Source: Thiothrix litoralis (GTDB taxonomy: Bacteria; Pseudomonadota; Gammaproteobacteria; Thiotrichales; Thiotrichaceae). Taken from it: a stretch of DNA of 64,000 nucleotides. Each line of letters starts with the position of its first letter. Positions within the stretch are counted from its first letter, which is position 1. The notes beneath the pieces are model-generated. The model did not search any database. It worked only from the letters and a program-made list of their open reading frames with translations, and was not told where the DNA came from. Location of the stretch: the NCBI RefSeq assembly GCF_017901135.1, contig NZ_CP072801.1:1612001-1676000 (forward strand), in the 5' to 3' direction. The translations under genes and the position numbers were made by a program. Shown one piece after another: positions 1-14,777 of the stretch.

Positions 1-1214
1 ATTGGTTGCCGATAGTGTTGTTGCTGGCTGCGGTGCTATTTGGATATAGCAGCGTGGTTGACAGTGCCTTTGAGGTATGGAAGCAGCAATTCCGTCAGGT
101 TGCCCTGTCGGAAGGCATTCACGCTGAAACCGTGGATAGGGCTTTAAGCGGCTTGCTGCCTGACAGCAAGGTACTGCGTCTGGAAGCTCACCAACCCGAA
201 TTTACCAAAACCGTGTGGGAATACCTAGAAACGGCAGCGTCACCCGAACGCATTGCCACTGGGCAAGCTATGCTGCGCGATTACGCTGACTTGTTACAAC
301 GCATCCACACCCAATACGGTGTGCAGCCTGAATATTTGTTAGCGATTTGGGGGCTGGAAAGCAATTTCGGCAACCATACCGGGCGTTACAGCATTGTGCG
401 CTCCCTAGCGACGCTGGCGTATGCGGGGGCTGTTGAGCGGCGTGATTTCTGGCAAAAACAGCTTGTGTCAGCGTTACGCATCCTGCAACAGGGTGATATG
501 TCGCCGGTTGCCATGCAGGGTTCGTGGGCTGGCGCAATTGGTCATACCCAATTTATCCCAACAACATTTGAAGCCTATGCTGTCGATTTTGATGGCGACG
601 GGCATCGTGATTTGGTGAACAGCATCCCGGATGCGCTGGCTTCCACCGCCAATTATCTGGCCAGTTCCGGTTGGGAACGTGACCAGCCGTGGGGCTTTGA
701 AGTGCGTTTGCCTGCTAATTTCGATTGGTCGAAAGCTGACCCGGATTATTGGTTGCCCATGAATATCTGGGGCATGGTCGGTGGCTTGACCACAGCACAA
801 GGGCAAGTGCTGGATGGCACGGGCGAAGGTTTCGTGTTGCTGCCCGCCGGTTATCGCGGCCCAGCTTTTTTGGCCTTACGGAATTTTCAGGCAATTCTCA
901 AATACAACAATGCCCAGAATTATGCGCTGGCAGTGGGCTATTTGGGCGATCGTATCCAAGGCAAGCCACCGCTAACAGCAGCTTGGCCGACGCAAGATAC
1001 CTCGCTGAGCCATGATCAAAAATCCGAGTTACAAGCCTTGCTCACGTCAGCGGGTTTTAATACTGACGGGGTAGATGGCAAGCTGGGGCCAAATACCCGT
1101 TCGGCTTTGCGGCGCTGGCAAGTCGAAGCCGGTTTCCCGGCTGACGGTTACGCCACGCTGCAACAGTTGGATGCGTTGCGCCAGCGCGTGGCTTCAGCTC
1201 CCCGCCAACCGTAA
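1..1214 (+). CDS. Lytic murein transglycosylase (MltB/SltB-like), 5' end probably outside the window
   Basis: Periplasmic enzyme that cleaves peptidoglycan glycan strands. A TTG at position 6 opens a 402-residue frame, but the frame stays open to the window edge, so the true start may lie upstream. The hydrophobic N-terminus (PIVLLLAAVLFGY) looks like a signal peptide. The SLT_2-type catalytic domain spans roughly residues 20-310 and has AIWGLESNFG, whose Glu is the expected catalytic acid, followed by AQGSWAGAIGHTQFIP-like core motifs (read here as MQGSWAGAIGHTQFIP). Residues about 335-395 (GVDGKLGPNTRSALRRWQ) form a PG_binding_1 domain. The gene converges on the SWIM protein gene and the two overlap by 21 bp at their 3' ends. 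Confidence 0.88.
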   Translation, partial: WLPIVLLLAAVLFGYSSVVDSAFEVWKQQFRQVALSEGIHAETVDRALSGLLPDSKVLRLEAHQPEFTKTVWEYLETAASPERIATGQAMLRDYADLLQRIHTQYGVQPEYLLAIWGLESNFGNHTGRYSIVRSLATLAYAGAVERRDFWQKQLVSALRILQQGDMSPVAMQGSWAGAIGHTQFIPTTFEAYAVDFDGDGHRDLVNSIPDALASTANYLASSGWERDQPWGFEVRLPANFDWSKADPDYWLPMNIWGMVGGLTTAQGQVLDGTGEGFVLLPAGYRGPAFLALRNFQAILKYNNAQNYALAVGYLGDRIQGKPPLTAAWPTQDTSLSHDQKSELQALLTSAGFNTDGVDGKLGPNTRSALRRWQVEAGFPADGYATLQQLDALRQRVASAPRQP

Positions 1215-2825
1215 CGCCAGCATGTGTTCGCAGGGCCCTTGGTTCAGCTTGTTCTGGATGTAAAAGTGGCAATGGCAGCTTGCCGCCACCAGGCGCATAT
1301 CCGCATCCAGAGTGATTTCGGGCTGGTAGGTTTGTGCATTATCCAGCACTTCCCCGCGTATCAATACCCGGTCATTCTGCTGCGCTTCCCGCGCCAGTAC
1401 CGTCACCAAATTGGCTAGCCGGAAATTGTCTGCTTTGGCTTCACGCTCATTGCTGAAACGCAGCTTATCCATCGGCAGCGGGTCTTTGCTGAGTTCACGG
1501 ATGCGGTACACATCGCTATCCATGTCATACAACACCCGCCCGTATTGCGAATAAATCCCCAAGGCTGATTTGACGGTCAGTAGATCCAGCCCCAAGCGTA
1601 GCGCCAGCGAAGTAGCACTTTCCTGCCAAGTGGTTTGCAAAGCTGCAAAGACGCGTTCCGCCGTGACGCTATCGACTTCGCCGCGTGGCGCCATCAGGTC
1701 GAAATTGCCCATGCGTGAAAAGTCATTGGCGCTCCAGCCCGACAAACCCAGCGTGAAGGTCATGTGTTCCATTTCCGCCACCCAAAAGCTCGGCAGGCCG
1801 GAACCCATCAAACTCACGCGGAAATGTTTCACGATCGGCAACAAGCGTTCCAGAATGAACAAGCGTCGCCGCCCCCAAATACGGATTTCCTGCGCGGTAT
1901 TGCCGCTGTAAAGACTGCGCGGACAGGTCAGGGTTTCGCCCCACGGGTCAAACTTCACCTGAATCGGTTGGTCAGGCGTCAGGCAGAAACGCAAGGAGCG
2001 TGGCCCACTTTTTTCCTTGTGGCGCTTTAAAAACAGCAGGATATTATACATATCCATCGGGTGCAGCGTGAATTCGGTAAACGGCAAACTCATGGCCGAG
2101 CTGACTTGCAGGAAACCGCGCACCCAACTGTCGGGCAGGTCAATCTTTTCTTCCTTGAAGTCGTCGCTCAACGCGGTCTGCACTTCAAAGCCGGAGGGGT
2201 CGATCACAAACTGGGTGCGTTTGTAATCACGGATTTTCTGGAATTCCTGATACAACTCGTGCGAATAGTCGATATTGGTCGTGCCATAAGCGTGTTCACG
2301 CACCTTATCGAACACCTCGTAACGGCAGCTTAATTTGCCGTAACTCGACTCATCCTGCGAGAAGCATTCAAAAAAGAGGCTGTCGGGGTGTACCGTAATC
2401 ACCGGGTCGAGTACAAACCACGCATCCCTGTCATTTTTGTACAAATACTGGAAATACTTGGAGCGGGCATTGTAGAACGGTGATAACGCGGCACTTTCGG
2501 CGTGTTGCACTTCGCGCATTTGCTGGCGTAACTCATCCAGTTGCGCTTTGACCTTGCCCTGTTGCGCCATGGCTTGCGCCAGAAACACGTCTTCCTGCTC
2601 TTTGAGCCATGCCTTGTAATCGGATTTATCCTTGGGCTGGAAAGCCATATCCGACACCACGACCTGATGCAGCGCGGACATCGCCTCGCGGAACGGGATA
2701 TGTTGCCCAAGGTCAGCGGCAAAAAATGTCGGGTTGCGCAACGCATCCGGCACGAATGACATGTTGGTTTCACGGCCGTTATTGGCGACTTGCGAATGAC
2801 CGTGGTATTTTCTGGAAAATTCCAT
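1194..2825 (-). CDS. SWIM zinc-finger protein, third gene of the retron operon
   Basis: A 543-residue protein with a C-terminal SWIM zinc finger: C517-x-C519-x12-C532-x-H534 fits the CxCxnCxH consensus, a nucleic-acid or protein binding module. The rest of the protein has no motif I can name; a winged-helix-like segment is possible. Its start codon shares one base with the stop of the WGR/HEAT gene (TGATG), indicating translational coupling. I recall that type XIII retrons in the Mestre et al. scheme carry an ARM/HEAT-repeat protein plus a winged-helix/SWIM protein, which matches this order. I infer that it is part of the retron effector; its biochemical activity is unknown to me. Confidence 0.8.
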   Translation of the reverse strand: MEFSRKYHGHSQVANNGRETNMSFVPDALRNPTFFAADLGQHIPFREAMSALHQVVVSDMAFQPKDKSDYKAWLKEQEDVFLAQAMAQQGKVKAQLDELRQQMREVQHAESAALSPFYNARSKYFQYLYKNDRDAWFVLDPVITVHPDSLFFECFSQDESSYGKLSCRYEVFDKVREHAYGTTNIDYSHELYQEFQKIRDYKRTQFVIDPSGFEVQTALSDDFKEEKIDLPDSWVRGFLQVSSAMSLPFTEFTLHPMDMYNILLFLKRHKEKSGPRSLRFCLTPDQPIQVKFDPWGETLTCPRSLYSGNTAQEIRIWGRRRLFILERLLPIVKHFRVSLMGSGLPSFWVAEMEHMTFTLGLSGWSANDFSRMGNFDLMAPRGEVDSVTAERVFAALQTTWQESATSLALRLGLDLLTVKSALGIYSQYGRVLYDMDSDVYRIRELSKDPLPMDKLRFSNEREAKADNFRLANLVTVLAREAQQNDRVLIRGEVLDNAQTYQPEITLDADMRLVAASCHCHFYIQNKLNQGPCEHMLALRLAGS

Positions 2826-5800
2826 CAGTAAGCCCTCACCGCTGGTGCGATTATCTGTACCGGGGTTTGCTGGATGCCGTAGCGGTTTTGCAATTCAAAC
2901 AAGGTTTTGATGTAACGCGATTTGTCGGCAATCACTCGGCTCAACGATTGGTCGCTGAACAAGGCCGCTACCATCCGCGCCACTTGCTCATCCTTGCCGG
3001 ATTCGGTAAACAGGAAGGCAATCACCCGGTCTTTTACCAAACGCCCGCGATTCACCTGCGACAGCACGGTATTGAAATAGCCTTGCAGCTTGAGGATCGT
3101 GTCCGGCTTATTGGCGGCGTATGCCTGCAAAAAGTTCGATACAAACAACTGCACGTTATTGGCGGGGTGCTGGCTCAATTGCAGCAAGTAGGTTTCCCCC
3201 TCACCTTGCTGGAAGCCACGTAACACTAGTTCGCGCCCGAATTGTTGCACGTCGTGATAGACCTGATCACACACCGCCACGACCCGTTCACTCGTCCAGA
3301 AATCGTCTGCAAAGCCGCTGAAGAACTGGATGGCTTGGGCGCGGGTATCCTCCCAGCGGTTATCCAGAATCCGCACCGCTTCTGCGAACTGTGCGGCAAC
3401 CCGTGCCGGATCAGCCTGTAAAGCTGTGATTGCCCACTCGCGCACTTGCAAGGTCGGGATTTTGCTCAACATCGCCAACTGCTTGACCGAAAACGCACTG
3501 GCAGGGTGTGCAGGCAAAATCAACGCCCCGGCACGTTCCGCCAACTTGCTTTTCGCGGTCAGCAAGCGCCATAACAGATTTTGGTCAATCTCGGCGTGGA
3601 TCGCTGCAACCGCTTGCACCAGCGCCAGCATGTCATCGCTGTAACCATCCACAGGTTCAGCCTTGAATAGCAGCGGCAAAATATGTGCGAAAATGTCTTT
3701 CTGGAAGGCGGCATCGTTGATGGACAGCGCCACCGTCCGCGCTCCACGGCGCAATTCAGCATTGTCAGATGTGAGTGCATTGAACAGCAGTACCCGGTAT
3801 TGCTGTTTCTCGGCATCACTGAGCTTGCTGATCAGGGCGATACCCAGGGCTTGCAATTCAGGTTCTGGGCGTGCCAGTAACAGCGGCAGCAACACATGAT
3901 TGCCGGGCATGGCGTACACATAATTTTTCGCGAACAGTTGCACATCAGCATGGGGCGAGAGCAACAGGTTCAGCAATAAATCAGGGCTTTCTGCGAAGTG
4001 TTCTGGCGTCAGGTTTGCCAACGCGTGATGGCGGATGCTGGCAAACTGGGCATTCAGCAGTGTGTAGACCACCTCGGTCTGCTGCAAAGCGTCACGCAAG
4101 TGTTCCAGCGCCAGCGTCGCAGTATTTTCATAGGGGCGCACCACCAGTTCCAGCCAAGTGGCTTGGGTTTGTTCCTGCAAAAACGCCGTTTGCGGCTGGA
4201 GGCGACGGTAGGCGAAATCATTCACCATCGCTGCCTTGCAATGACGCAAGATGTAGAGCAAATCCTGCCCCGCATACGCCCACAAGGTTGGGAAAGCTTC
4301 CGGCTGGTTGGCTTCGTTCTGGCGGTTTTCCTGCAAAAACCAAGTGCCTATGTAGTTTTGTCCGTAGCGTTGGCTGTGACGGTGCAGGATGAAATTCAGC
4401 GCCACCAGTTCGGGGAAGTAAAGCAGGTGCTTTTTCGGGGTATGTTGTGCCATTGGCGAGGCATCATCCGCCAGCACTAATATTTCCCGCGCTAGCCGCA
4501 GATAATCGTTGGGGGCGAATTTACCCAAGTTGCGCAAATGGCGCACGGTACGGCGACGCAAATACAGCTTGCTTTGGCGGGTGAATGCCGTGTTTTCGTC
4601 GCGCCATGCTTGCCGCCGCCCTTCATCCGGGGTGGTTTCCAGCCGATGATTCAGCACGGCAAGTGCTGCGTGGTCATCCAGAAACTCGGCCATTTTGTAA
4701 AGCTTGCGGAACGAGGCGGTAAACGATTGGTTCACCGGGGCATTCTGGATGGCGCGGAAAGCCAGCGCCCGTTTGTCCGGCTGGATGCTGGCCAGCGCGT
4801 ATAAGCCCACCACATGCTGGCTGTAATGTTCCAGCAACTGCTCTTTGGGTTGCAGGGCATCTTTGCGCAAATCGGCAAAGCGATCCATGAACAAGCGGCG
4901 GACGTGGTAATTGAGTGCAGTGTCATATTTACTGCGGATGGCATCGCTGACCTGATGCTGGTAGCCATAGAACCAGCGATTAGCCCTGATGGTCGGCACA
5001 ACCCGCTTGACCACATCATCGTAAGCCTCGTGGGTGTGCAGGATGGCATAGCATTGCTGCAAACGTTCGGCGAACACGGCTGACTGACGTTTGCTTTGCT
5101 GCTCGTAGTAGTTGATGACACGCTGCCACAAGCTGCTGATATTTTTCACTTTACCCGTGGCTTTCAGGGCGTTTTGCAGGTTGCGTTTGGCCTCACCCCA
5201 CAGGTATTGCACATTGCCTTCGTTGGCGCGGGCAATGTCGTAGGTATCATGTGCCAGCACGGTTTGCAGATTCATGCCTGCCAGCAGTTGCTGATACAGC
5301 TCGAAGTCGGCTTGGTATTCGCGCTGTTTCTGAGCCAGCAAGGCGTTATAGTGGTAACTCAGGACATCGGTAATGGCAGGTTCGAGTTTGGGCACGGCGG
5401 CCTTGCTTGCCTGAATTTTGGTATAGCTGACAGCATCAATGCGTTGCTGCATGAAATCCTGATCTGCATCTGTCAATACGGTTTGGCTGAGTGCCTGTTG
5501 GATGGCGTCGGTCAGCCCTTGCCAATGCAGTACTTGCTGGATGTATGCCCGATCTTCCTCATTCAAGCGGTCGAAAGACATGGTGGCGTAATGGTCAAAT
5601 GCCTGGATGGCTTCAATCGCTTGCAGCGCATCCAGCGTTTGGTCAAATGCTGGTAGGCAGTTTTCTGGTGCTTGCCCGAGGTGCAGGCAGGCGAACTGGT
5701 ACAGGTGCGCGGGCACTTTGTCCTGAAGCTGTTGCAAGATGGGCAGGGCGGCACTGTCACGGGTGCGTCCGGCTGCCCAAGCGATGGCGTAATAACACAT

Positions 5801-6322
5801 CGGGTCGTCTTTGGCTTTACTGGGCAAGTTATTGAGCAGCGCTTGCAGGGCAGGAATCAGTTCCGGGATGCGTAGTTCCCCAGCTTTCCACACGCTGCGG
5901 CTTAGGGAGTAGCCATCAATCAGACCGGCGCTGTCGAGGTGCTGGTCGCCTTCCGCAAATTTGTAGAGACGTTCCAGAATTTGCTGGTCGCGGCTTTGGG
6001 CTTTTTTGCCTTTGCGTGGGGCGGCTTCGGTTGGGGCGGCGGTGCTGGCACCGATGGTTTCGCCCGTGACCGGGTTGTAGCCGATCAGCACTTCATAGCC
6101 TTTGTTCATCTTGCTGACCAGCAAGCTATCGGCGACTTTTTTGGCTTTGGCGGCATCGACGGGGGCGGCGGTTTTACTGCCTTCGGTGCGTGGCTTGCCG
6201 GAACGTCCGTAGCGGAAATTAACCAGCAGGTTGCCCTCAGAAACTTCCACAATGTCCACTTCGTACACTTTGTCGGAAGCGCCATCCTGAAAGCGCAGGG
6301 TAGTACGTCGGATCAGATTCAT
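2825..6322 (-). CDS. WGR-domain protein with HEAT/ARM-like helical repeats, retron accessory gene
   Basis: A 1165-residue protein. Residues about 1-80 (RRTTLRFQDGASDKVYEVDI, then NFRYGRSGKP) form a WGR domain, a module known in PARP-type and bacterial proteins for contacting DNA ends. The remainder is almost all alpha-helical, with many Leu/Ala-rich helical pairs (for example LPALQALLNNLP, LLLSPHADVQLFAKNYV) typical of HEAT/ARM scaffolds. A lysine-rich linker (PRKGKKAQSRDQQ) follows the WGR domain. Its ATG overlaps the RT stop (ATGA, 6319-6322) and its stop overlaps the SWIM start, so the three genes are one translationally coupled unit. The WGR domain suggests that it senses the reverse-transcribed DNA or its ends; that is inference. 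Confidence 0.82.
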   Translation of the reverse strand: MNLIRRTTLRFQDGASDKVYEVDIVEVSEGNLLVNFRYGRSGKPRTEGSKTAAPVDAAKAKKVADSLLVSKMNKGYEVLIGYNPVTGETIGASTAAPTEAAPRKGKKAQSRDQQILERLYKFAEGDQHLDSAGLIDGYSLSRSVWKAGELRIPELIPALQALLNNLPSKAKDDPMCYYAIAWAAGRTRDSAALPILQQLQDKVPAHLYQFACLHLGQAPENCLPAFDQTLDALQAIEAIQAFDHYATMSFDRLNEEDRAYIQQVLHWQGLTDAIQQALSQTVLTDADQDFMQQRIDAVSYTKIQASKAAVPKLEPAITDVLSYHYNALLAQKQREYQADFELYQQLLAGMNLQTVLAHDTYDIARANEGNVQYLWGEAKRNLQNALKATGKVKNISSLWQRVINYYEQQSKRQSAVFAERLQQCYAILHTHEAYDDVVKRVVPTIRANRWFYGYQHQVSDAIRSKYDTALNYHVRRLFMDRFADLRKDALQPKEQLLEHYSQHVVGLYALASIQPDKRALAFRAIQNAPVNQSFTASFRKLYKMAEFLDDHAALAVLNHRLETTPDEGRRQAWRDENTAFTRQSKLYLRRRTVRHLRNLGKFAPNDYLRLAREILVLADDASPMAQHTPKKHLLYFPELVALNFILHRHSQRYGQNYIGTWFLQENRQNEANQPEAFPTLWAYAGQDLLYILRHCKAAMVNDFAYRRLQPQTAFLQEQTQATWLELVVRPYENTATLALEHLRDALQQTEVVYTLLNAQFASIRHHALANLTPEHFAESPDLLLNLLLSPHADVQLFAKNYVYAMPGNHVLLPLLLARPEPELQALGIALISKLSDAEKQQYRVLLFNALTSDNAELRRGARTVALSINDAAFQKDIFAHILPLLFKAEPVDGYSDDMLALVQAVAAIHAEIDQNLLWRLLTAKSKLAERAGALILPAHPASAFSVKQLAMLSKIPTLQVREWAITALQADPARVAAQFAEAVRILDNRWEDTRAQAIQFFSGFADDFWTSERVVAVCDQVYHDVQQFGRELVLRGFQQGEGETYLLQLSQHPANNVQLFVSNFLQAYAANKPDTILKLQGYFNTVLSQVNRGRLVKDRVIAFLFTESGKDEQVARMVAALFSDQSLSRVIADKSRYIKTLFELQNRYGIQQTPVQIIAPAVRAY

Positions 6323-7878
6323 GACTTACCTCCGATTATTTCTTGGACTTGCGGCAATACATCGCGGTGCTGGATCAGCTCATCCAGCGTTGGTGGTGGC
6401 TTGATGGGGGCAACGCGCATGGTGTCCAGCGGCAGTTTGCCTTGCGCGGCACGTTCGCGGAATTGGGTGTTGCTGAACTTCGTTGCTTGTTCGGGTTTGC
6501 CGTGCTTTTGCTGGATGGCGCTAATCTGTTCTAAAAACTGGCTGCCTTTTGCTGGGTTCACCATGCGCACGTAATGGGCATAGCTTTTGATATTGGAGAG
6601 CAGGTTGTAACCGTTGCCCCAGCTTTTACCGGCGTAACCATCCTTGTCGATCTGGAACAGCAGGGCGCGGAATTGCTTGAGCTTTTTGTTATCCAGCGAG
6701 AGGTGCTGGTTGACGACGATGCCGGTGACTTCCTGTTTGCTACCCTGTTTCATGATGCGGGTTTTGTCTGGGTGCAGGTGGAAACCTTCTGCGGTCACGG
6801 TAGCCTTGGTTGAATAGAGCAGGGCGGGGATAGCATCAGCCTGTGTGCCAGAAAAGGTCAAATCGTCGGCGTAACGGGTGTAGGCAAAGCCATGTTTGCT
6901 CGCCAGACCTTGCAGGCGTTTGTCCAGCGTGCGGCAAATCACGTTGCTCAGGGCAGGGCTGGTGGGTGCGCCTTGCGGCAGGCGGCGGCTGGTGCTGTTC
7001 AGGTAATAGCGTTGCCCATCCATTTCCACGGTTTGGGTATCGGCTTCGGAACACAGCAGCGCCAGCAGGGAGGCGACTTCGTGGTTATAGCCGAGTTGCG
7101 CGAAAGTGCCTTTGATACGCGGGTAGGTAACGGTGGGGAAAAAGTCTTTCAGATCGAGATTGATCACGACTTTTTGCGCCAGATGCGGCTGGGCATTGCT
7201 GACAATGCTGCGGCCTTTGACGAAACCGTGCGCCTGTTCGGTGAGTTCCAGCGGTTGCAGGATATTATCCAGCACCCAGTATTGCAGGCGTTTCAAACGC
7301 GGCATGGGGGCGGAAATCAGGCGTGTACCGCCGGATTTTTTCTGCATCGCGAAATGCTGGTAGTGGCAAACCCGCGAAACTTGATTGCTGTAGGTCAGAA
7401 AGCGCAATTCGTTGAGGGTAATGCCCATGCCTTCCGCGAGTTCGGCAGCATTGGAATAGACGGGTAGGCCAAGGCTGTGCAGGCGTTCCGCGTCTGACAC
7501 GTCAGCGGCGGCAGAGGGTTTGAACCCGGCAGCATCGCCAAGGTAGTGGATGTGGTTTTGCTGCTTTTCATGCCAAGCCTGTGCGCGATGGAAGCGGGTG
7601 ACTTCGCGTTTGACTTTGGTATCAATGCGTTGCTGGCGGGCGGCGGCCATGCGTTCTTGGTGAATCGCTTTGAGGGCAGCTTTAGGGTCGGTAATCTGGG
7701 CGGATAAGGCGTTGATCTGGCGTTGCAAATCGCCACGGCGTTTGATCAGGGATTCGGCCAGCGTTGGCTGTGCGTCTTCCTTCCAGTAACCCAGCCGTTT
7801 CATCTCGCTGAGGATAACTTCATCCTTGGAGGTTTCTTTGATCTTGTCATAGAGTTGCTGGCGGGTGAGTTGGCTCAT
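6319..7878 (-). CDS. Retron reverse transcriptase (type XIII-like)
   Basis: A 519-residue RT that should copy part of the adjacent msr-msd RNA into multicopy single-stranded DNA. Key blocks: NAQPH at 228-232 (the retron-specific NAxxH of region X), INLDLKDFFP at 239-248 with the first catalytic Asp, LPQGAPTSP at 300-308, YADD at 336-339 with the metal-binding Asp pair, and VTG at 384-386 (the retron region Y motif). QGxxTSP together with NAxxH and VTG separates it from group II intron and DGR enzymes. It is longer than the roughly 320-residue minimal retron RTs: about 165 residues, partly helical and charged, precede the fingers domain. A weak ribosome site (AGGGAC) lies about 10 nt before ATG 7878. 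Confidence 0.92.
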   Translation of the reverse strand: MSQLTRQQLYDKIKETSKDEVILSEMKRLGYWKEDAQPTLAESLIKRRGDLQRQINALSAQITDPKAALKAIHQERMAAARQQRIDTKVKREVTRFHRAQAWHEKQQNHIHYLGDAAGFKPSAAADVSDAERLHSLGLPVYSNAAELAEGMGITLNELRFLTYSNQVSRVCHYQHFAMQKKSGGTRLISAPMPRLKRLQYWVLDNILQPLELTEQAHGFVKGRSIVSNAQPHLAQKVVINLDLKDFFPTVTYPRIKGTFAQLGYNHEVASLLALLCSEADTQTVEMDGQRYYLNSTSRRLPQGAPTSPALSNVICRTLDKRLQGLASKHGFAYTRYADDLTFSGTQADAIPALLYSTKATVTAEGFHLHPDKTRIMKQGSKQEVTGIVVNQHLSLDNKKLKQFRALLFQIDKDGYAGKSWGNGYNLLSNIKSYAHYVRMVNPAKGSQFLEQISAIQQKHGKPEQATKFSNTQFRERAAQGKLPLDTMRVAPIKPPPTLDELIQHRDVLPQVQEIIGGKS

Positions 7879-7915
7879 GCAAGTCCCTGATTATTCGTTA
7901 TTGTTTTTAAAATAA

Positions 7916-7939
7916 ATAGCCGACCCTTGAGTCGGCTAT
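7916..7939 (-). terminator. Hairpin with U-rich tail between msr-msd and the RT start
   Basis: A perfect 9-bp stem (ATAGCCGAC, 7916-7924, against 7931-7939) with a 6-nt loop is followed on the minus strand by TTTATTTT. It sits between the predicted 3' end of the retron RNA (about 7944) and the RT start at 7878. It has the form of an intrinsic terminator or attenuator that would release the ncRNA and let only part of transcription reach the operon. It could alternatively be a 3'-end stabiliser or processing hairpin. Confidence 0.6.
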
Positions 7940-7943
7940 CGGT

Positions 7944-8151
7944 AGTAAATTACCTTCGTTCATCCAGAAGATCAGCTTGCTACACTCGATGCGGGGACGG
8001 ACTACTGTGCGATATTGGTTTCCTTAGAAACGCAATGCAATTCGCACAGTAGTCCAGTCCCCGCCCTAGTAAAGAGCAAGCTGATGTCGCTTTGAAAGGC
8101 TCTATACGCGAACAGCGATCCACTGTTCAAGTTGCAAGGGTTCATTTACTG
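7944..8151 (-). ncRNA. Retron msr-msd RNA gene
   Basis: On the minus strand, immediately upstream of the RT. A long hairpin has arms 7991-8012 and 8042-8064 (22 bp, one bulged base) and is extended inward by GTTTC/GAAAC and ATTG/CAAT. It is closed outward by a perfect 11-bp stem (7971-7981 with 8075-8085), giving an msd-like structure of about 115 nt. Upstream, 8110-8128 forms an 8-bp stem with a triloop, fitting an msr stem-loop. Candidate a1/a2 terminal repeats are AGTAAAT (8150-8144) and ATTTACT (7950-7944), 7 bp, extendable by GGT/ACC across a bulge. The predicted transcription start (about 8151) falls exactly before a1. The branching guanosine is not assigned. Confidence 0.8.
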
Positions 8152-8157
8152 AGGAGG

Positions 8158-8185
8158 ATTTTACTACACATCATCACTTGGTCAA
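8158..8185 (-). promoter_or_regulatory. Predicted sigma70 promoter of the retron RNA/operon
   Basis: On the minus strand, TTGACC (8185-8180) and TAAAAT (8163-8158) are separated by 16 bp. Each matches 5 of 6 consensus bases. The implied start near 8151 lies one base before the a1 repeat of the retron RNA, which supports both calls. Confidence 0.6.
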
Positions 8186-13229: not shown

Positions 13230-14777
13230 TTATCCCTGTTCCCACTCAAAGCCCACAATATTACGGTCAGTTTTGCTGAACTCGACGCCGATCAAATATA
13301 TCGGCTGGTTTAGCCCCCGGTATTTGTCAGCATACGCACGGTCTTTGATTTGCTGTAATGCCTTACCTTGCGGAATCAGTTCCACCACCTTGAACTCAAA
13401 AATGTACACTTGCTGGTTAAACTTCAGGGTCATGTCAATGCGCCCTAAATTGCTGGTATCTTCCAGCGTGACATTCAAGCCCAGTGAGGCGAAATAGGAA
13501 TAAAACACGCTGGCGTAATAGCCTTCGTAATGCTGGATCTCGTTATTGTTGTACCACTGGTGTGGAATGCTGGCGAAAAAGCTGTGGAACAATTGTTTGA
13601 GGCCAGCAAAATCATTGTTGAGCAACAAGCGGTACAACTGATTGCTATGCACGACCTGTTTGGATTTGTCCAGCACCAGTGCGGAGAGCAACGTTTCGTT
13701 CAGGCTTTGATAGACCTCACGATTGGGATAGCCCAGCGTATAAAAATACTGCCCGCCCAGATTTTCTTCCTGTTTAATGGTCAGGTAGCCGGTCTGAAAC
13801 AATAACGCTTCGGTGGTGATATTACCCACTTCAAAACTGGATAGCATATCGCTGCTACTGAGCATACTATCGAGTGTCAGGGTCGGTATCTGGCGCTTAA
13901 GAAGCTGCTCCACCAGAAAAGTCGGTGTACCTGTTTCAAACCAGTAATTCCTGAACAGATGGTTTTTAAACAGTTGCAGAATATCAAACGGGTTATAGAC
14001 GCCCGTCCCCAACCAGTTGTAACCGTTGTACCACGCCCGGATTTCAGCACGATCCAGCCCCGGTAGTTCAGGCGCGAATACGGTGTCGATATCCTCATCG
14101 GTGTAACCACACAGGCTGGAATAGCGCGGGATCAGGGTAATATCTTCCAGATTATTCAAACCGGAAAACAGGCTGACTTTGGAAAACTTGCTCACGCCAG
14201 TCAGGAAGCTGAAGCGGATATGCCCGTCAAAATCCTTGATCGTACCGTAGAAGCCGCGCAGGAAATCGCGGTTGGCTTTGGCAATGTCGGGGTATTCCAG
14301 CGCATCCAGAATGGGTTTGTCGTATTCGTCGATTAGCACCACGACGGGTAAGCCTGTTTGTTTGTGGGCATGGAGAAGCAGTGACTGAAAGCGTTCAGGA
14401 CAGGTGGTGTAACCTGAGCGATACTGGAATTGTTCTTCAAGTCGATCCAGTTGCGCCATGAGATTTTGCGGCAGATAGTCGGCTTGCCGGAAGTTCCCCG
14501 AGCCAAAACTGAAGCGCAGCACCGGGTATTTCACCGACCAATCCCACTGATCATGGATAGCCAGCCCCTGAAACAACGGCTCGTTGCCTTCAAACAGTTC
14601 CTTAATGGTATCCAGCAACAGACTTTTGCCGAAACGGCGCGGGCGCGACAGAAAGTAATGTTTGCCGCTCTCGACAATTTGCTGGATCAGGCCAGTTTTA
14701 TCCACGTAATAGTGGTTATCCTCACGGATTTCACGGAAGGTCTGGATACCGATGGGAAGGCGTTTGCGTTCAGTCAT
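13230..14777 (-). CDS. AAA-ATPase-like / PD-(D/E)XK nuclease-family protein (first of two)
   Basis: A 515-residue protein of the AAA-ATPase_like (DUF1703-type) family. N-terminal PIGIQTFREIREDNHYYVDK precedes SRPRRFGKSLLLD, the family's Walker A variant. The Walker B-like strand is VVVLIDEYDKPIL. The C-terminus has GRIDMTLKFN and IFEFKVVE, i.e. the D and E-x-K of a PD-(D/E)XK nuclease fold. The family is multicopy in many bacteria; function is unproven, and links to toxin-like or mobile nucleases are speculative. The start ATG overlaps by ATGA the stop of a chimeric leader frame derived from ybbA (14774-14908). The gene interrupts the usual divergent ybbA/tesA pair. Confidence 0.85.
   Translation of the reverse strand: MTERKRLPIGIQTFREIREDNHYYVDKTGLIQQIVESGKHYFLSRPRRFGKSLLLDTIKELFEGNEPLFQGLAIHDQWDWSVKYPVLRFSFGSGNFRQADYLPQNLMAQLDRLEEQFQYRSGYTTCPERFQSLLLHAHKQTGLPVVVLIDEYDKPILDALEYPDIAKANRDFLRGFYGTIKDFDGHIRFSFLTGVSKFSKVSLFSGLNNLEDITLIPRYSSLCGYTDEDIDTVFAPELPGLDRAEIRAWYNGYNWLGTGVYNPFDILQLFKNHLFRNYWFETGTPTFLVEQLLKRQIPTLTLDSMLSSSDMLSSFEVGNITTEALLFQTGYLTIKQEENLGGQYFYTLGYPNREVYQSLNETLLSALVLDKSKQVVHSNQLYRLLLNNDFAGLKQLFHSFFASIPHQWYNNNEIQHYEGYYASVFYSYFASLGLNVTLEDTSNLGRIDMTLKFNQQVYIFEFKVVELIPQGKALQQIKDRAYADKYRGLNQPIYLIGVEFSKTDRNIVGFEWEQG

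Follow-up and report, generated by a model that had tools for sequence, protein, structure and literature searches.

The DNA analysed here, referred to below as the window, is a stretch of 64,000 nucleotides from Thiothrix litoralis (assembly GCF_017901135.1, contig NZ_CP072801.1, positions 1,612,001 to 1,676,000), and a retron operon lies at its beginning, carried by a single-contig genome of 4.28 Mb. All positions are those of the window. The operon is on the minus strand and consists of a promoter-like site, a structured non-coding RNA (ncRNA), a terminator-like hairpin, and the genes for a reverse transcriptase (RT), a WGR/HEAT-repeat protein and a SWIM zinc-finger protein, in this order (Table 1). 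A complete retron operon at 1194..8185 was proposed in an initial annotation made from the sequence alone, and all of its parts were found there. The described coupling of the genes was likewise seen, the open reading frame (ORF) of the WGR/HEAT protein overlapping the RT gene by four bases (ATGA) and the SWIM ORF overlapping the WGR/HEAT gene by one base (TGATG). The pairing of ARM/HEAT and winged-helix/SWIM proteins had suggested a type XIII retron, in a classification that is said to come from Mestre and co-workers in 2020. PADLOC bore this out for all three proteins: the best families were RT_XIII for the RT (595 bits; next RT_other, 316 bits), WGR_XIII for the second protein (772 bits; HEAT-ARM_XIII, 56 and 50 bits) and SWIM_XIII for the third (762 bits, the one family matched). 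Judged by these family matches, the locus is a genuine type XIII retron, chromosomal, and a variant of its type; the class itself is known.

The RT contains the motifs NAxxH, YADD and VTG named in the initial annotation, which we take to be marks of retron RTs. N228, A229, H232 and all residues of YADD and VTG were invariant across the five RTs of alignment A1. The solved retron Ec86 RT aligns with residues 126-464, which are preceded by an N-terminal extension of approximately 125 residues that is common to the relatives in A1. The nearest solved structures were Ec86 RT chains (E 4e-48). Clustering with group II introns, which had been named as an outcome that would speak against a retron, was not seen. 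A group II intron or other non-retron RT was rejected as a candidate, since the maturase model scored 64 bits where its cut-off is 300.

Table 1. Features of the retron operon, with positions in the window.
Feature	Position	Strand	Basis
Promoter-like site for ncRNA, TTGACC-16-TAAAAT	8158..8185	-	10/12 matches
Predicted retron ncRNA (msr-msd) transcript including terminator	7909..8150	-	putative ends, placed by promoter and T tract
a1 arm, pairs with a2	8136..8150	-	predicted fold; duplex
Candidate branching G within conserved CCTTGC	8135	-	CTTGC nearly invariant in aligned cores
msr hairpin	8110..8128	-	5/8 pairs doubly changed, 99.6% of cells paired (35-sequence alignment, helix 1)
msd: base helix and long variable hairpin (about 8064-7991)	7971..8085	-	fold; covariation
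a2 arm	7944..7956	-	predicted fold; duplex
Terminator-like hairpin (7940-7915) with T tract, separating ncRNA from RT	7909..7940	-	pattern scan
RT gene	6319..7878	-	519 amino acids (aa); PADLOC RT_XIII E 2.4e-179; Pfam RVT_1 4.8e-25
NAxxH motif (NAQPH, residues 228-232)	7183..7197	-	translation, alignment
YADD catalytic motif (residues 336-339)	6862..6873	-	translation, alignment
VTG motif (residues 384-386)	6721..6729	-	translation, alignment
WGR/HEAT-repeat protein gene	2825..6322	-	1165 aa; PADLOC WGR_XIII E 3.7e-232; helical solenoid model
Insert typical of RT-first clade, WGR protein residues 201-500	4823..5722	-	alignment filling
SWIM protein gene	1194..2825	-	543 aa; PADLOC SWIM_XIII E 6.5e-230
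Predicted PCNA-like sliding-clamp fold, residues 34-366	1728..2726	-	structure model
Winged-helix-like segment, residues 386-445	1491..1670	-	model secondary structure; weak Pfam winged-helix matches in a minority, DprA_WH 8/39
SWIM zinc-finger ligands Cys517, Cys519, Cys532, His534	1224..1277	-	invariant in 39/39 rows

Conservation and gene order of the module

Among 84,980 species genomes scanned, 166 relatives of the RT were found, the best 80 of which were analysed. Conservation of the two downstream genes, whose lack had been named as a reason to give up the proposal, was found in most of these loci, as both partners were present in 73 of the 80. Three loci had one partner only, where the contig ends (L020, L022 and L054), and four had neither nearby (L061, L064, L070 and L071). 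Within the phylum, RT_XIII was matched at E<=1e-90 in seven of 398 genomes, four of them with more than 588 bits and three with 311-345 bits. SWIM_XIII and WGR_XIII each matched four of the 398, namely the genomes with the strong RT_XIII matches and none of the three weak ones. In 200 genomes, the profile made from 39 SWIM proteins (alignment A3) matched only the same four at E<=1e-3. As the SWIM_XIII and A3 scans matched strong-RT genomes alone, a SWIM protein without a retron RT was not seen in these samples. The ncRNA, the retron RT and the WGR/HEAT and SWIM proteins are, as these sequence comparisons show, one conserved module.

The order of genes in the window, ncRNA-RT-WGR-SWIM, belongs to a minority. 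RT was last in 65 of the 80 loci, with the order WGR-SWIM-ncRNA-RT (L054, cut by the contig end, among them), and first in nine; two loci were rearranged and four were without a partner. In the RT tree, for which the sequences were cut to 480 aa, the nine RT-first loci together with the window were separated from the others by a branch supported at 100/100; L070 was just 11% filled, and support for deep branches varied. Two further groups of loci were of note. The rearranged loci L087 and L091, both from Pseudanabaena, have an inverted WGR gene lying between SWIM and RT and, beside it, a further ORF of 297 aa. L061, L064 and L070, from Roseofilum and a cyanobacterium, carry type XIII-like RTs with no partner gene nearby, and their partners may lie elsewhere in the genome.

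A near copy of the window locus was that of Thiothrix lacustris DSM 21227 (L015), with 99.8-100% identity of the RT and 97% identity of DNA across 1-8151. The similarity stops at 8151/8152, exactly the 5' end of the ncRNA, and different genes lie upstream of that point. Further along the window, at 13230-14777 on the minus strand, there is a 515-aa ORF which, by eye, resembles the AAA-ATPase/PD-(D/E)XK proteins often met in accessory DNA.

The retron RNA and the RT-first clade

The RNA gene directly upstream of the RT folds as expected according to the initial annotation, and bases 8153-7940 gave -92.7 kcal/mol compared with -55.9 for shuffled sequences (z -7.9; 0 of 200 shuffles as good). A structured msr-msd with a1/a2 arms, msr hairpin and msd hairpin lies beside the RT, as in other type XIII retrons. 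Judged by this fold, its msDNA would measure roughly 100-125 nt. The G at 8135 we take to be the branching G from its placement after a1, by analogy with other retrons. No family in Rfam covers the retron RNA in the window. The RNA tests, including those of the a1/a2 arms and the terminator, comprised 74 loci, 65 RT-last and nine RT-first with the window included; the near copy L015 and L061, L064, L070, L071, L087 and L091 were left out. In 66 of the 74 a core was recognisable that runs from CCTTGC to CGAAGG and measures some 187 bases, the pattern missing L033, L035, L057, L065, L077, L080, L085 and L088. In the RT-last group the own a1/a2 partner beat swapped arms, ranking in the top 5% in 48 of 57 cases.

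Covariation was observed both within the clade and across the type. Among the nine RT-first sequences, 25 of 60 pairs were changed on both sides (shuffled mean 14.2, 0/500 as high; slid alignments 6-7), and the long msd stem was the most variable part (helix 6, 19/26 pairs doubly changed). The type-wide alignment A5 holds 35 cores from several phyla, seven of the nine RT-first and 28 of the 57 RT-last ones; L036 was dropped for its odd length, the row of L019 begins a few bases late and that of L084 is cut short. Here 29 of 36 pairs were changed on both sides (shuffled mean 22.6, 0/500; slid 16-21), 92.3% of cells pair compared with 72.1% shuffled and 31-45% slid, and the covariation score was 0.585 against 0.211. 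The number of further pair types was a weaker measure, the real value being equalled by 24/500 and 27/500 shuffles.

The terminator-like hairpin at 7940-7915, absent from the initial annotation, is one of two such sites found in 500 bases, with 0.5 expected. A hairpin just after a2 was present in 9/9 RT-first sequences, six of which had at least four T in the next eight bases; in the RT-last group the corresponding numbers were 31/57 for a hairpin and 0/57 with a T tract. The first, stricter scan gave 5/9 for RT-first and 1/57 for RT-last. In 17 of the 57 RT-last loci a T-rich stretch follows the a1/a2 stem itself, so termination may be met otherwise there. The hairpins of the RT-first clade differ in sequence between genera, which suggests selection for function, presumably for more ncRNA than RT message. 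The promoter-like site is weak if taken alone, since 0.7 such sites were expected by chance for the one found; in L015-L018, inspection by eye showed similar hexamers ahead of the ncRNA. With a promoter-like site of its own and a terminator-like hairpin, the ncRNA of this clade is probably produced at a higher level than the RT.

The clade is further marked in its proteins. Residues 351-500 of the WGR protein were filled (>40%) in 7/7 RT-first rows and in 0/34 others. A strongly hydrophobic tail after residue 430 of the RT occurs in 42 of 81 RTs overall (L024-L053 and others), all outside the clade of the window (0/10), as if these retron RTs were membrane-anchored; the count is based on a 19-residue average of at least 1.6 on a scale, which is not a membrane-helix predictor.

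The two partner proteins

The model of the WGR/HEAT protein, made from 41 sequences with a mean predicted local distance difference test score (pLDDT) of 86, has a WGR-like beta domain at the N-terminus and, besides it, a long solenoid of helices, whose structural matches were non-specific. The WGR match of the window protein falls just below the Pfam cut-off (20.5 vs 22 bits). The domain was matched at E<=0.01 in 20 of the 41 relatives, at best with 4e-7; the YGR signature was kept in 17 of the 41, and the preceding FR in most rows. The proposed role of WGR as a DNA-end-type sensor is what we infer from the domain, and it may hold here. Family and structure matching recognised no enzyme domain in this protein.

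Of the 39 members of the family of the third protein, 37 matched Pfam SWIM (E<=1). Its model predicts a two-domain clamp fold, and the best structural matches shown were all clamps. Two putative inner helices are basic: segment 317-328 has an average net charge of +3.2 over the 39 rows, with R319, R320, R321 and R327 invariant, and segment 256-277 has about +3.5; inner helices were assigned by the order of elements, not from coordinates. Searches of PADLOC, Pfam and other family collections gave no enzyme family match. The partners differ in rate of change. Over 496 pairs of loci, median pairwise identity was 53.8% for SWIM, 50.8% for RT and 27.9% for WGR, the WGR protein being less conserved than the RT in 496/496 pairs and the SWIM protein more conserved than the RT in 394/496.

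Proposed action and comparison with known systems

In retrons described in PMC12548924 and PMC13405049, a complex of RT, ncRNA and multicopy single-stranded DNA (msDNA) keeps an effector inactive, and this hold lasts until the complex is disturbed by a phage product. In the type IX retron of PMC13405049 a winged-helix partner cradles the msDNA stem-loop, which the phage trigger mimics. By the pattern of retrons in general, the RT of the window would copy msd into msDNA, and RT, msDNA and partner proteins would form an inactive complex. With no recognised enzyme domain in either partner, both probably act by holding DNA. The SWIM protein, with clamp-like domain, winged helix and zinc finger, would form the conserved core for binding nucleic acid, gripping the msDNA hairpin at rest, and the fast-changing WGR/HEAT solenoid would be the surface meeting the phage signal or DNA ends. 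A phage product disturbing the msDNA would release the WGR-SWIM pair onto DNA, where it would block replication or transcription and bring the infected cell to a halt by abortive infection. The locus is read most economically as encoding a pair of DNA-holding effectors set free from msDNA, the steps of this reading beyond the sequence facts being conjectural, and we consider the chances of its being right to be about even. A bolder form would have type XIII retrons built round a sliding-clamp-like protein, the long msDNA hairpin being kept within a PCNA-like ring or half-ring, or against it, while the WGR/HEAT solenoid serves as its gate or loader; disturbed by phage, the msDNA would free the clamp to close on replicating or broken DNA and jam replication. 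This is a tentative and fairly improbable idea which, if true, would give a retron effector that acts by clamping DNA and not as an enzyme.

Several observations weigh against the released DNA-holding pair. The clamp fold comes from one predicted model with a mean pLDDT of 74, low in parts 60-67, 131-139 and 213-229. No Pfam clamp family was among the 25 families shown for the 39 SWIM members at E<=1, hhalign of the SWIM profile with 30 bacterial DnaN was no better than with shuffled columns, and a profile search of PDB sequences gave no clamp chain. Two of the four putative inner helices are neutral (42-57, -0.2; 189-199, +0.2). A modelling artefact, with another fold for the SWIM protein, would account for this mean pLDDT and for the silence of the sequence searches; we find it unlikely. 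Some patches of the SWIM protein, with D140, D148, E153, D158, E159, D186 and H146 among their residues, show nearly 100% conservation across phyla; they are partly acidic and could mean catalysis instead. They exceed the need of a plain DNA ring, and the protein might then be an unrecognised enzyme, e.g., a nuclease, with the clamp-like shape as scaffold and its toxicity kept off by the retron ribonucleoprotein; the absence of an enzyme family match and the best structural matches shown, all of them clamps, make this rather unlikely. In the RT-first group, own a1/a2 pairing reached the top 5% in 2/9 cases only, a test that says little there because the arms are short and near-identical.

The distribution within the genus also speaks against the released pair. 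Full-length relatives are carried by 12 of 16 Thiothrix genomes, mostly at a shared site, unlike a typical accessory defence system; in nine of the 12 loci the same transglycosylase gene lies beyond the SWIM gene, and the upstream flank differs in several. From frequency and shared neighbour the retron looks like a long-resident system in Thiothrix, which leaves room for a role beyond defence. In Thiothrix the module could serve chiefly as a resident element of DNA maintenance or regulation that derives its parts from a retron, and the contrast of 12/16 with 4/398 in the phylum, the neighbour shared by most loci and the maintenance-type character of WGR, HEAT, clamp and SWIM domains would all suit this. 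Retrons in general act in phage defence, however, and the fast evolution of the WGR protein, the changing upstream flanks and the scattered distribution outside Thiothrix fit a maintenance role poorly; we hold it to be rather unlikely.

The division of labour in the released pair could also be reversed, with WGR/HEAT as the effector and SWIM as an msDNA-bound lock, its winged helix or clamp recognising the msDNA tip and keeping WGR/HEAT inactive until displaced by a phage DNA-binding protein, as with the winged-helix protein in the type IX retron. The two-partner design resembles Retron-Kva2, whose winged helix cradles the msDNA loop (PMC13405049). Of the partners, SWIM is also the one with the highest conservation, which would suit a subunit tied to RT and msDNA. 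No toxic enzyme domain was recognised in the WGR/HEAT protein, and its solenoid matches are non-specific; we consider this arrangement fairly improbable.

The statement in the initial annotation that few or no type XIII systems have been worked out experimentally agrees with our searches of the open-licence literature (subscription papers are mostly outside it). In the accessible part of PMC11953036 a type XIII retron appears just as a PADLOC call in a Variovorax strain. Among the papers found there, no title joined a retron with a sliding clamp, and nothing was found on retron, WGR and SWIM together. The permuted RT-first clade and the clamp-like prediction appear new, as far as these searches reach, and the type is one without a worked-out mechanism found there. 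A clamp-like fold in the most conserved partner, if true, would be the first concrete structural handle on the action of type XIII retrons and would tie retron immunity to the DNA-replication machinery. Detection of msDNA can be designed without difficulty from the type-wide ncRNA consensus, the small RT-first clade offers a natural way to see if an excess of ncRNA over RT is of consequence, and the three competing roles of the SWIM protein are separable by simple mutants.

Compared with other type XIII retrons, the window operon shares proteins that all match the type models end to end or nearly, and an ncRNA core common to 28 RT-last loci of other genera. It differs in having RT first, in the T-tailed hairpin after a2 found in its clade, and in the missing hydrophobic RT tail; the WGR_XIII model is without the insert of the clade, the match being split into 1-538 and 619-972. 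A second, sister operon (L133) was seen in Thiothrix genome G400, which also has an RT-first system. Like the window operon, L133 combines a HEAT-repeat protein, a SWIM-type protein (608 aa, 34% identity) and an RT (40%), but its HEAT protein has 1963 aa and no WGR protein match by P0002, its RT is shorter (430 aa) and the order is HEAT-SWIM-RT. It is probably of the HEAT-ARM subtype (HEAT-ARM_XIII), a name that is our own reading. Retron-Kva2 (type IX; PMC13405049) likewise has a pair of partners, of which one contains a winged helix, and an RT family distantly related to that of the window (match to 36ht_A, 27-79 aa bits, E 3.4e-21); its effector is a HEPN RNase, of which none was recognised in the window operon. 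With PCNA and DnaN sliding clamps the SWIM protein shares the predicted two-domain fold, at 7-11% identity and with no profile-level similarity to the 30 DnaN compared (PCNA profiles were not compared directly), and it is set apart from them by a helical insertion (about 61-138) and by the fused winged helix and SWIM finger.

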